From: Corynebacterium tuberculostearicum
GTDB taxonomy: Bacteria > Actinomycetota > Actinomycetes > Mycobacteriales > Mycobacteriaceae
Assembly: GCF_016894265.1 (NCBI RefSeq)
Contig: NZ_CP069791.1
Location: 434,001 to 498,000, forward strand
Reading direction: 5' to 3'
Length of the DNA stretch: 64,000 nucleotides
In this document: positions 1 to 56,592 of the stretch, one piece after another
How positions within the stretch are numbered: position 1 is the stretch's first letter
Layout of the letters: the number at the start of each line of letters is the position of its first letter
Program-made: the position numbers and the translations under genes
The notes under the pieces: generated by a model
Database searches by the model: none
Seen by the model: only the letters and a program-made list of their open reading frames with translations
What the model was told of the DNA's origin: nothing

Positions 1-1691
1 TCGGCGCCTTCTACCTCGAACTTCTCCTCCTTTCCCTGCAGGTCAATGCCCTTATCGGCGCAGTAGTTCTTGAAAGCCACCACGGCGATGCCCAGGCCAC
101 CGAGGTCACCGATATTCTCGCCCAGGGTGAAGCTGCCGTTGACACCGGTGGAGTCGATGCCAGCCTCCTTGAGCACCGTCGGTACCTGTCCATTGAATTG
201 CTCCACCAGCTTGGCGGTGAGCTTGTCAAAGGCCGCGCGGTCCTCCTCGGACCACCAGGAGTTCAGGTTGCCCTGGCCATCAAATTGCGAGCCCTGGTCA
301 TCAAAGCCATGTCCAATCTCGTGGCCGATGACGGCACCGATGGCGCCGAAGTTTTCTGCGGCATCAGCATCCGGGTTATAAAACGGCGGGCGCAGGATGG
401 CGGCCGGGAAGGTGATGTCATTGACCACCGGGTTATAGAAGGCGTTGACCGTCTGCGGGGTGGTTACCCATTCATCGCGGTCGGCCGGCTTGCCAATCTT
501 GGCCAGCTCAAAGTCATGGGAGAACGCGGAACCGGCGCGGGCATTGGCCAGCAGGTCCGCGCCCTTGCCAGAGACCTCGAGGCCAGAGTAATCGCGCCAG
601 GAATCCGGGAAGCCAATCTTGGCCTTGAACTGGGATAGCTTTTCCAGCGCGCGCTCGCGGGTGGCCGGCGTCATCCACTCCAGCTGGGAAATGCGCTCAC
701 GGTAGGCGGCGATGAGGTAGTCCACCAGCTCATCCATCTCGCGCTTGGAAGAGGCCGGGAAGTGCTTATCCACAAATACCTGGCCAATCTCTTCGCCCAC
801 GAGGGACTCGGCCAAGCCCACGGCGCGCTTCCAGCGGTCGCGCTGCTGGGTAGCGCCGGAGAGCTTGGTGCCATAGAACTCGAAGTTCTTCGCGCCTACC
901 TCCTCCGGCAACATAGCCGCGCGGGAGCGCAGGATGTGCCAGGTGGCCCATAGCTGCCAATCGGCCATGCGCGCGGTGGTAAAGAGGCTCTCGAAGTGCT
1001 CGAGGTAGGACGGCATCATATTGACCACGCGGTGCTCTGGCAGGTTGCCGCCGGAGAGCAGAGCGCGGGTCATGGTGGGCAGCTCGCTAAATTCGCAGGG
1101 GTTATAGGTCTTAACCGCATCGCGGGTGGAGACCACGTCCCAATGACCAGCGGCCAGCTCCTTTTCCAAGGCAACGATGCGATGGGCGGCCACCTCGGCG
1201 CCCAGGCCAAAGAGGCGGGCTGGGTCGAGGAATTCCAGCATCTCGGCCACATGCTTTTCATAGGCGGCGAGAGTTTCGGCGTGGGCTTCCTCGCGGTAAT
1301 AAGCCTCATCCGGCAGGCCCAAGCCGGATTGGATGACATAAGCAATGGCATCCTCGGAACCGGAGTCCTTGGACACCCAGAAGGTCACCGGGGAGCCAAC
1401 GCCGGTGCGCTCCAGCTCACCCAGGCGCTGCGCCAGTTCCTCGGGGTCGGCCGCGCTCAGGCGGTCCAGATCCGCGTCCAATGGAGCCATGCCGGCCGAG
1501 TTGACCCCCTCGGTATCCATAAAGGAGGCATAGAGCTTGCCCGGGCGGCCGGTGTCCTTGTCCACGATCTCGTGCACGAGTTCCTCCGCCTCATCGCGCA
1601 GCGCGTGGAAGGTGCCATCCACGCCGCGATCATCGGGAATGACGTGGCTTTCCAGCCAGGGTCCATTGACTAGTTGATAAAGATCTTTCAT
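1..1691 (-). CDS. pepO: M13-family zinc metallopeptidase (PepO/neprilysin-like), truncated at window edge
   Basis: Neprilysin-type endopeptidase that cleaves oligopeptides. The frame is open from an ATG at 1691 to the window edge (about 563 residues of a usual 640-660). Seen directly: the substrate-binding motif NAFYNP near residue 416, the zinc motif HEIGH at 457-461, and the third zinc ligand Glu525 in GENIGDLGG. There is no signal peptide (it begins MKDLYQLVNG), so the enzyme is probably cytoplasmic, as for other bacterial PepO proteins. It is divergent from the gene at 1734, with 42 bases between the two starts. The only missing part is the C-terminus, which lies outside the window. Confidence 0.93.
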   Translation of the reverse strand, partial: MKDLYQLVNGPWLESHVIPDDRGVDGTFHALRDEAEELVHEIVDKDTGRPGKLYASFMDTEGVNSAGMAPLDADLDRLSAADPEELAQRLGELERTGVGSPVTFWVSKDSGSEDAIAYVIQSGLGLPDEAYYREEAHAETLAAYEKHVAEMLEFLDPARLFGLGAEVAAHRIVALEKELAAGHWDVVSTRDAVKTYNPCEFSELPTMTRALLSGGNLPEHRVVNMMPSYLEHFESLFTTARMADWQLWATWHILRSRAAMLPEEVGAKNFEFYGTKLSGATQQRDRWKRAVGLAESLVGEEIGQVFVDKHFPASSKREMDELVDYLIAAYRERISQLEWMTPATRERALEKLSQFKAKIGFPDSWRDYSGLEVSGKGADLLANARAGSAFSHDFELAKIGKPADRDEWVTTPQTVNAFYNPVVNDITFPAAILRPPFYNPDADAAENFGAIGAVIGHEIGHGFDDQGSQFDGQGNLNSWWSEEDRAAFDKLTAKLVEQFNGQVPTVLKEAGIDSTGVNGSFTLGENIGDLGGLGIAVVAFKNYCADKGIDLQGKEEKFEVEGA

Positions 1692-1733
1692 GCTTGCCAC
1701 TCTAGGTCAAAGCAGCAAGATAAGGTGTGGGCT

Positions 1734-2315
1734 ATGGAATTTTATCGCTTTCCTCCAGCGCATCCGCGGCGCCTTTTCCTCGCCGTCATTGCGTTCGTGG
1801 CGGTGGTTCTCGCTTTGCCCACAATTGTGCAGGCGGCGCTGGTGGATTCCTCCGCGGACGTCGAGCAGGTCACCCTGACCGAGCCCAGCCAGGATTGGGA
1901 GATTGACGTTGCCGATCTCTACTGCGAGCGCGATTATGAATCCCTCGCCAGCATCGGCTGGACCTGCGGTGATGTCAGTGTGCAAGCCACCCTTACCGAG
2001 GATGCCAAGGACGATGCCACCACCTTGCGCCGCATGGTCCGCGCCCTAACCATGGCTTCCCTGCCGGCCGACGCCCCCACCTTTGACGGCACGAATGGAG
2101 CGCTCCTGCTTGCCGACGCCCCCTCCTCCACCGCCGCCCTCTCCCTCGACGGCACCGGCGAGGACGAAAACAAGGATTGGGTGGTCACCGTGACCGGCAA
2201 GGGCGATCAGGCCCGGGCCACCACCTCCCGCATCTGGCATGCCTTCGGCCAAGAGGATCTGCCCGCTGCGGCCGATGCAGAATTCGCTGACTTCTCCGGG
2301 GAGTTGATGTTCTAG
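1734..2315 (+). CDS. small membrane-anchored protein with Cys pair, partner of PrsW (copy 1)
   Basis: Unrecognised 193-aa protein. Residues 14-35 form one hydrophobic segment after a short basic N-terminus, so the rest should be outside the membrane. The external part has Cys64 and Cys78 (C-x13-C, ending W-x-C) and a later helix with RRMVRA at 99-104. The protein at 56158 has the same order of features, and both sit directly before a prsW gene, so I treat them as paralogues. Here the stop codon directly abuts the PrsW start. TAAGGT at 1721-1726 sits 7 bases before the ATG, consistent with a leaderless transcript. A longer frame opens at 1674 but has nothing to recommend it. Role unknown; a PrsW partner or substrate is inference. 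Confidence 0.8.
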   Translation: MEFYRFPPAHPRRLFLAVIAFVAVVLALPTIVQAALVDSSADVEQVTLTEPSQDWEIDVADLYCERDYESLASIGWTCGDVSVQATLTEDAKDDATTLRRMVRALTMASLPADAPTFDGTNGALLLADAPSSTAALSLDGTGEDENKDWVVTVTGKGDQARATTSRIWHAFGQEDLPAAADAEFADFSGELMF

Positions 2316-3167
2316 ATGTCTAAGCTCTTTCGCACCACGCTGTGGATCCTGTCCGGCATTGGCCTCATCGCGTTCTTTTTCCAGACGCTGAGCACATTTT
2401 TGATCTCTCCCCTGATGGGCCTGCTCAGCCTGCTCATCGCCGCCGTTCTCGTGGCGCTGGTCATCTTCTTGCTGCAGCGCAGCCCCATGTGGGCCCGCCC
2501 GGCGCGCCTGTGGGCCCTACTGGCTTTCCTTTGGGGCGGCGGGGTGGCCGTAGCCCTAGCGCTTATCAGCTCCGGTCCTGTCATGCAGCTTGCCATCGAC
2601 ACCGGCTGGGTGGATGCCATGATGTCCTGGAGCGGCGCCTACCCAGAGGAAATCTCCAAGGCTACCGGCGTTATCTTCGTGCTCATGTCCTTCCGCCAGC
2701 TCAACCGCCCGTGGCATGGCTGGATGGTGGGCGCAGTGGTGGGCCTAGGCTTCGAGGCCTGCGAAAACATCCTCTACGGCGCCATGGGCGCGACCATGCA
2801 CCCCGATAGCGATATTCAGGGCCTATTTGAGATGTGGGGCCTGCGGCTTATCGCCGGCCCTGGCCTACACGTCTTGCTCACCGCGCTGGCCGGCTGGGGC
2901 ATCGGCTGGGCGCTCTATGCCGCCGCCAAACCGCTGTGGTGGCGTATCGGCGTCTTTCTCGGCTGCCTCGCCGCCGCTTTCCTCCTGCACTTTTGCTGGA
3001 ACTACATGCACGATTCCGAGGTGGCCGCCATCATCCAGGCCGTCACGGTAGCGCTTATCCTCTACCCGCTGAGCATATGGCTGGTGCTGCGCGGCAATAA
3101 GCTCGCCAAGGCCGATGAGAGTTATAGCCACAGCACTGCCGACGACGCCCTCGCCTACATCCGCTAG
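2316..3167 (+). CDS. PrsW-family intramembrane metalloprotease (copy 1)
   Basis: Polytopic membrane protein of 283 aa with the PrsW signatures in order: EEISK at residues 111-115, GFEACEN around 145-151, a membrane helix with GPGLH, and a late helix with LLHFCWNY. Family knowledge: PrsW of Bacillus subtilis cuts the anti-sigma factor RsiW inside or next to the membrane; many actinobacterial members have no known substrate. The ATG follows the stop of the upstream anchored-protein gene with no spacing, so translation is very likely coupled. A second copy of the same two-gene module lies at 56158-57389. Transcription probably ends at the hairpin at 3188-3240. Confidence 0.88.
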   Translation: MSKLFRTTLWILSGIGLIAFFFQTLSTFLISPLMGLLSLLIAAVLVALVIFLLQRSPMWARPARLWALLAFLWGGGVAVALALISSGPVMQLAIDTGWVDAMMSWSGAYPEEISKATGVIFVLMSFRQLNRPWHGWMVGAVVGLGFEACENILYGAMGATMHPDSDIQGLFEMWGLRLIAGPGLHVLLTALAGWGIGWALYAAAKPLWWRIGVFLGCLAAAFLLHFCWNYMHDSEVAAIIQAVTVALILYPLSIWLVLRGNKLAKADESYSHSTADDALAYIR

Positions 3168-56039: not shown

Positions 56040-56157
56040 GCACCCAACCTATCACAGGGCTTGGCAGAACTTATGGGGGAGAAATCCTCCCTATGTCCGG
56101 CTTAATCCTCCCCGCGGAGGATACCGCGCTGAGCAGGGCATACCTAGCGTTGAGTGT

Positions 56158-56592
56158 ATGAAAAGCACACCACTCATCCTCGCGGCGGGCGTGATATTTG
56201 GTGCCATCTACGGCACCAATGCGCTCCTGCCAGACATGTATGACAACCCCACCTCTGAGGTGCAGGCCGGCTCGGCTCGCATCCCCGGTTTGTCCTGCCT
56301 CGAAGAAGATGGCTCCACCACTGGCAATCCGCGCTGGGACTGTGATGGCACCCAAATCCGCGCCAAGGAAGCCGGCGTCCAGGACAAAGACCAAGCAACC
56401 CGCCGGTACCTGCGGGCAATGGGCGAGGGCACGGCCATGCCGGGAGGAGACATCGTGCGCGACGGCGATAAGCGCACGCTTGTCGATGGCGACCTAGTAG
56501 CCATCAGCGTCGAGGGCGATGGCCCCACCACGTTCGTTTCCCTGCGCGGACCGCGCGCTGAAGAACTCGCCCAGGAGGTAGAAAAGGCATGA
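56158..56592 (+). CDS. small membrane-anchored protein with Cys pair, partner of PrsW (copy 2)
   Basis: 144-aa protein with an N-terminal hydrophobic segment (residues 5-23) and an external domain. Cys47 and Cys62 (C-x14-C ending W-x-C) and the helix RRYLRA at 82-87 match the copy at 1734 (Cys64/Cys78, RRMVRA) in order and spacing. Its end overlaps the following prsW start (ATGA). TAGCGT at 56145-56150 lies exactly 7 bases before the ATG, the same layout as copy 1. Role unknown. Confidence 0.8.
   Translation: MKSTPLILAAGVIFGAIYGTNALLPDMYDNPTSEVQAGSARIPGLSCLEEDGSTTGNPRWDCDGTQIRAKEAGVQDKDQATRRYLRAMGEGTAMPGGDIVRDGDKRTLVDGDLVAISVEGDGPTTFVSLRGPRAEELAQEVEKA

Follow-up and report, generated by a model that had tools for sequence, protein, structure and literature searches.

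To our knowledge, little has been established about the function or control of PrsW-family intramembrane proteases beyond Bacillus subtilis and C. difficile. RsiW, the known substrate, is a single-pass protein that is cut on its outer side. In B. subtilis, PrsW performs the site-1 cut of RsiW, and the family is described with an eight-helix architecture and with fusions of PrsW to toxins (PMC3482391). For Corynebacterium, one protein is given merely as a 'PrsW peptidase' (PMC7456259). A small protein partner is absent from the consulted passages of both papers. Among the matches listed, titles and abstract openings of the literature on PrsW (in Corynebacterium, in Mycobacterium/Rhodococcus, on intramembrane substrates and on accessory proteins) or on LpqN/MmpL3/Mog1p do not describe the pair of genes considered here either.

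The window, a stretch of 64,000 nucleotides from Corynebacterium tuberculostearicum, contains this pair twice, as the preliminary description had observed when it pointed to a small gene abutting a PrsW gene in two copies. The relevant features are the following.

1721-1726, forward strand: -10 element TAAGGT of a leaderless-type promoter, 13 bases before the ATG of partner 1
1734-2315, forward strand: PrsW partner 1, 193 aa, with a short cytoplasmic tail, a membrane anchor and an exported LpqN/PsbP-like domain (predicted)
1830-1832, forward strand: codon of partner 1 residue 33, Q here, at the predicted outer anchor end; co-varies with PrsW residue 95
2316-3167, forward strand: PrsW-family intramembrane protease 1, 283 aa, with E111, E112, E150, H185, H225 and N229 present
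2598-2600, forward strand: codon of PrsW 1 residue 95, D here; its loop precedes the catalytic Glu pair
56145-56150, forward strand: -10-like element TAGCGT in front of partner 2, 13 bases ahead of its ATG
56158-56592, forward strand: PrsW partner 2, a diverged homologue, 144 aa
56589-57389, forward strand: PrsW-family intramembrane protease 2, 266 aa; its start overlaps the end of partner 2 by four bases (ATGA)

In copy 1, the PrsW ATG directly follows the TAG stop of the partner, with zero overlap. PrsW 2 is 29% identical to PrsW 1 over 249 residues, while PrsW 1 is 94-96% identical to its nearest named records (C. kefirresidentii and C. tuberculostearicum). The whole source genome (2.43 Mb, one contig) holds two PF13367 matches, both within the window. 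Divergent from copy 1 and upstream of it lies an M13-family peptidase gene (3-1691, reverse strand; PF05649 335 bits, PF01431 147 bits), which also appears leaderless, with ACTCTA at 1699-1704 before its reverse-strand ATG at 1691 (judged by eye). Further downstream, two adjoining small multidrug resistance genes (PF00893; 4155-5136, reverse strand) sit beside a gene with a 6-O-methylguanine DNA methyltransferase DNA-binding domain.

Both proteases belong to the PF13367 family (144.3 bits for PrsW 1 and 97.6 bits for PrsW 2, cut-off 23.5) and share with the B. subtilis enzyme the conserved set of Glu-Glu, Glu, His, His and Asn. In contrast to that enzyme, they score far below the cut-off of the NCBIfam PrsW equivalog NF033739, the RsiW site-1 protease (28.4 and 30.7 bits against 225), and are accompanied by a dedicated upstream partner that is unrecognisable as an anti-sigma factor. 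E111, E112, E150, H185, H225 and N229 are invariant in the alignment of all 142 partnered PrsW proteins. Judged by sequence, the partnered protease is catalytically intact at every aligned locus, with proteolysis itself being predicted; the partner is thus unlikely to be a relic.

The recurrence of the pair across the genus indicates that its arrangement is not due to chance. PF13367 was found in 120 of 151 Corynebacterium genomes (about 80% of the species sampled), and a partner profile built from the same genomes matched 122, including all 120 with PrsW; a C. glutamicum control genome also gave a PF13367 match. One of the two additional genomes has its contig cut off about 400 bases beyond the partner, where a PrsW start can still be read; in the other, the match covered the anchor alone within a 497-aa frame and was taken as chance. 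The surroundings of at least 150 PrsW matches from 119 genomes were collected, and the trimmed profile, started from 57 sequences and iterated at a threshold of E < 1e-3, matched one upstream frame at 141 of 149 PrsW loci; the other 147 of the 288 upstream frames, which served as built-in negatives, were unmatched. An earlier, untrimmed profile, into which antisense frames of the M13 peptidase gene had entered, likewise gave 141 loci, and a strict motif search finds the partner at only 53 of the 149. One further locus (L040) was matched with a wider search range, and two were set aside, one with a cut contig (L034) and one with stops in the PrsW frame (L131), so that the partner lies directly upstream of PrsW at 142 of 148 readable loci. 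A scan of named genomes, a set overlapping the first, found it at 79 of 80 PrsW loci, the exception being a contig end. The recurring, dedicated upstream partner expected by the preliminary description was therefore found in other genomes.

The six PrsW loci with no partner directly upstream are second copies in two groups. In the first (L116-L118), a long gene replaces the usual partner; that of L116 matches VanW and a putative peptidoglycan-binding domain, the Pfam match having been checked in L116 alone and the other two being alike by eye. The second group comprises L145, L146 and L148, which have none there. In the one of these that was checked (genome G057; L233, G057:C681:161287-164293), a single partner lies between two protease genes, in the order PrsW, partner, PrsW, and in two genomes (G012 and G100) partner matches occur close to the lone-looking PrsW as well. 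A record titled Kocuria sp. 36 (L275) carries a typical Corynebacterium-type pair, and its organism name may be wrong. Fusions of partner and PrsW were absent from 12 long PrsW frames and from L040. A relative of the M13 peptidase lies upstream on the opposite strand at 89 of the 142 partner loci only, which places it outside the core module.

The preliminary description placed the two small proteins of the window in diverged copies of one arrangement, sharing a Cys pair in spite of low overall identity, and proposed to check their relatedness with a profile. Pairwise BLASTP is unconvincing alone (28% identity across 87 residues, with E 0.005 for a single comparison). With the clade of copy 2 (6 of 142) excluded, a profile built from the other 136 partners matched copy 2 with an E of 6.9e-24 in a search of 528 window frames and one reversed control; the control was unmatched and the best unrelated frame reached 0.044. 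The profile thus bears out the homology. The Cys pair noted earlier corresponds to C64/C78 of copy 1, with both columns Cys in 94% of the 142 partners, and would form a disulfide in partner 1; an Arg at position 100 is invariant. Neither Pfam (both window partners and six diverged partners) nor NCBIfam (both window partners) yielded a family or model above its cut-off.

Structure prediction for partner 1 gives an anchor helix at residues 11-35, with residue 33 at its outer end, and an exported LpqN/PsbP-like domain at 43-170. The predicted domain, beta-beta-beta-beta-alpha-beta-beta-beta-alpha, superposes on LpqN, PsbP and Mog1, and its fold would be that of LpqN, Apa and MTC28 of Mycobacterium tuberculosis. 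Foldseek alone returned no match for the model at E 0.001 or better, and a search of solved chains with partner profile A1 found nothing related and no LpqN at E up to 10. Unlike LpqN, MTC28 and Apa, the partner has no Pfam match, is predicted to be helix-anchored and is encoded beside PrsW, and the Corynebacterium type has the hairpin Cys pair and the invariant Arg. The fold also matches SciW/EagT6, chaperones that bind the membrane helices of effectors, and, at lower Z, the C-terminal domain of RseB, a sensor on the anti-sigma factor RseA that shields a protease target. These are structural likenesses only, and neither is the anchored partner of an intramembrane protease.

The two genes are closely coupled, as had been proposed from the window. 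An exact 4-base overlap occurs at 75 of 142 loci, and a candidate PrsW start lies between -14 and +10 bases from the partner stop at 140 of 142, the start being taken as that nearest to the stop, a choice that favours small gaps. The matching leaderless promoters noticed in front of both copies also belong to a genus-wide pattern: of 47 non-redundant partner starts (reduced from the 75 of 142 loci at which the start could be placed), 42 have a TANNNT that begins 12-14 bases ahead of the start codon, with at most two occurrences per position elsewhere in the 60 bases. Partner and PrsW probably share one promoter.

Partner and protease also diverge together. Across 142 pairs, their distance matrices correlate with a Pearson coefficient of 0.80, with median pairwise identities of 0.196 and 0.301. 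Of 62 tests in 20 multi-copy genomes, not all of them independent and some from closely related species, 53 placed a PrsW's own partner closer than that of another copy; the nine opposite results fall in three genomes (G007, G143 and G132). The first of these has five partner-PrsW pairs that differ widely in sequence (L029, L041, L095, L103 and L119), a natural set for probing the specificity of pairing.

Co-variation between individual residues was scored as corrected mutual information over 147 × 240 column pairs. Partner residue 33 with PrsW residue 95 gave the highest inter-protein value (0.387), the maxima of the shuffles being 0.147 with random pairing (20 shuffles) and 0.304 with clades preserved (16 runs). 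Residue 95 precedes the Glu111-Glu112 pair by 16 residues; hydropathy, together with the charges of the adjacent loops, would place its loop outside the cell, a simple hydropathy scan alone not resolving the eight helices. Where PrsW has K95, the partner has N or D at 33 in 49 of 50 loci; where K95 is absent, it does so in 12 of 92 (61 of 142 overall). Seven independent pairs on the PrsW tree gave on average 6.2 in the same direction and 0.1 in the opposite one, with a median p of 0.031 that is not corrected for picking 33/95 afterwards as the best of all column pairs and comes from related loci. A held-out set was formed by 33 of the 80 named loci, the others being unpairable or having a PrsW at least 97% identical to one in the first set; here N/D33 was found in 4 of 7 loci with K95 and in 2 of 26 without (p 0.011). 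The three held-out K95 loci that lack N/D33 count against a contact, and window copy 1 itself, with Q33/D95, indicates that 33-95 is not a universal one. N-terminal residues 4-6 also score high in co-variation but follow clades, and were given no weight.

Related forms of the pair occur elsewhere in the class, in what may be called the Rhodococcus/Gordonia type. Direct comparison of the two partner profiles failed, with a probability of 7.6%, and the link with Corynebacterium is instead drawn from gene position, fold, the motif at the anchor exit, g30 and g22 partners that bridge the two profiles (40% match), and one Corynebacterium partner from the five-pair genome that is matched by the Rhodococcus/Gordonia-type profile (E 6.9e-4). 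In each of the 13 Rhodococcus/Gordonia-type partners examined, a proline at the end of the anchor is followed by N or D, and each of the 13 PrsW proteins has a Lys in the same loop, as against 2 of 22 partnerless PrsW proteins (two more being unreadable), a contrast confounded by clade. Pairs of the g30 type have E (or R or D) with D at the two positions, which are not complementary and count against a contact.

Strict co-inheritance, coupled genes and contact-like co-variation near the active site argue for a complex, and the likeness of the predicted fold to SciW/EagT6 and RseB was counted on the same side. We consider it an even call that the pair works as one membrane machine in which the partner is most likely a regulatory or adaptor subunit of PrsW. 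The small protein would be the obligate membrane-anchored partner of a catalytically competent glutamic intramembrane protease of the PrsW family. Its anchor would be in contact with PrsW, the outer end being next to the exoplasmic loop just ahead of the catalytic Glu-Glu helix. Its LpqN/PsbP-like domain, stapled by the disulfide, would cover the outer mouth of the protease, where it may gate the active site or present substrates. MmpS5, a single-pass protein encoded upstream of MmpL5 and with a fold different from that of the partner, provides a possible parallel. It is described as an adaptor for the MmpL5 transporter (PMC12346298), so that in a related mycolic-acid bacterium a small adaptor would likewise accompany a large polytopic membrane protein; the other fold, and a transporter in place of a protease, make this an analogy only. 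Also counted against this reading were a proline near the outer anchor end, which would suit a cleaved substrate or the c-region of a signal peptide as well, the six PrsW loci without a partner directly upstream, and the nine pairing tests that went the other way.

The strongest alternative, which we consider possible and less probable than a subunit, is that the partner is a dedicated substrate, cut by PrsW at the outer end of its anchor or immediately beyond it, so that the LpqN/PsbP-like domain is shed, perhaps under stress. The site-1 cut of RsiW by B. subtilis PrsW offers a precedent (PMC3482391), and strict co-occurrence and joint absence fit a substrate too. The helix-breaking proline (column 29, conserved in 129 of 142 partners) keeps this alternative in play, being close to the outer anchor end and adjoined by the co-varying residue 33, beside the catalytic loop. 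The subunit was ranked above it since the partner lacks a cytoplasmic effector domain that a cut could release, and lacks a conserved cleavage motif: the tail before the anchor has about 10 residues in partner 1 and 5 in partner 2, and the linker that follows the anchor belongs to the more variable regions (mean top-residue fraction 0.30). Moreover, RsiW is not encoded beside PrsW, and exact 4-base overlaps, as general experience suggests, occur more typically between genes for subunits of the same complex.

The same short tails, and the absence from both window partners of an anti-sigma domain or any other Pfam domain, are at odds with the classical scheme of anti-sigma cleavage. The membrane signalling switch suggested in the preliminary description consequently found no direct support, while its recurring dedicated partner, homology, coupling and leaderless motifs stood.

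Improbable in our judgement is an envelope protein with a role of its own, for example the binding of clients in the manner of LpqN, whose gene shares a transcript with that of PrsW only because both serve one stress or envelope response. The predicted fold of LpqN, Apa and MTC28 and a probable single promoter would suit such a role, against which stand the lack of a clear single loss or separation at the presence level in 151 genomes, the co-divergence of paralogous pairs and the residues that co-vary between the two proteins. Still less credible is a secreted protein whose signal peptide is cut after the anchor and which acts on targets away from PrsW. In its favour, 92 of 142 partners have a loose motif resembling a signal-peptidase site towards the end of the hydrophobic stretch; against it, a strict AxA occurs in only 23, the longest stretch free of charged and N/Q/H residues has a median of 20, and there is no known reason for discarded signal-peptide residues to co-vary with PrsW.

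With the partner read as a regulatory or adaptor subunit, a broader proposal, offered tentatively and at slightly short of even confidence, is that actinomycetes use a two-subunit PrsW, in which the protease's own anchored LpqN/PsbP-like lid would dock at the loop just ahead of the catalytic Glu pair and select what is cut. Regulated intramembrane protease complexes would thereby gain a class not described before, one that works independently of anti-sigma factors. The partner-PrsW pair is apparently undescribed, and it has the look of a unit in which a protease comes with its own regulator or its own substrate. Two groups of proteins so far unannotated as 'hypothetical protein' gain a predicted fold, a likely envelope location and a probable binding partner. 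Whether as lid, adaptor or substrate, the strictly co-inherited partner would offer a concrete handle on the targets and control of PrsW.
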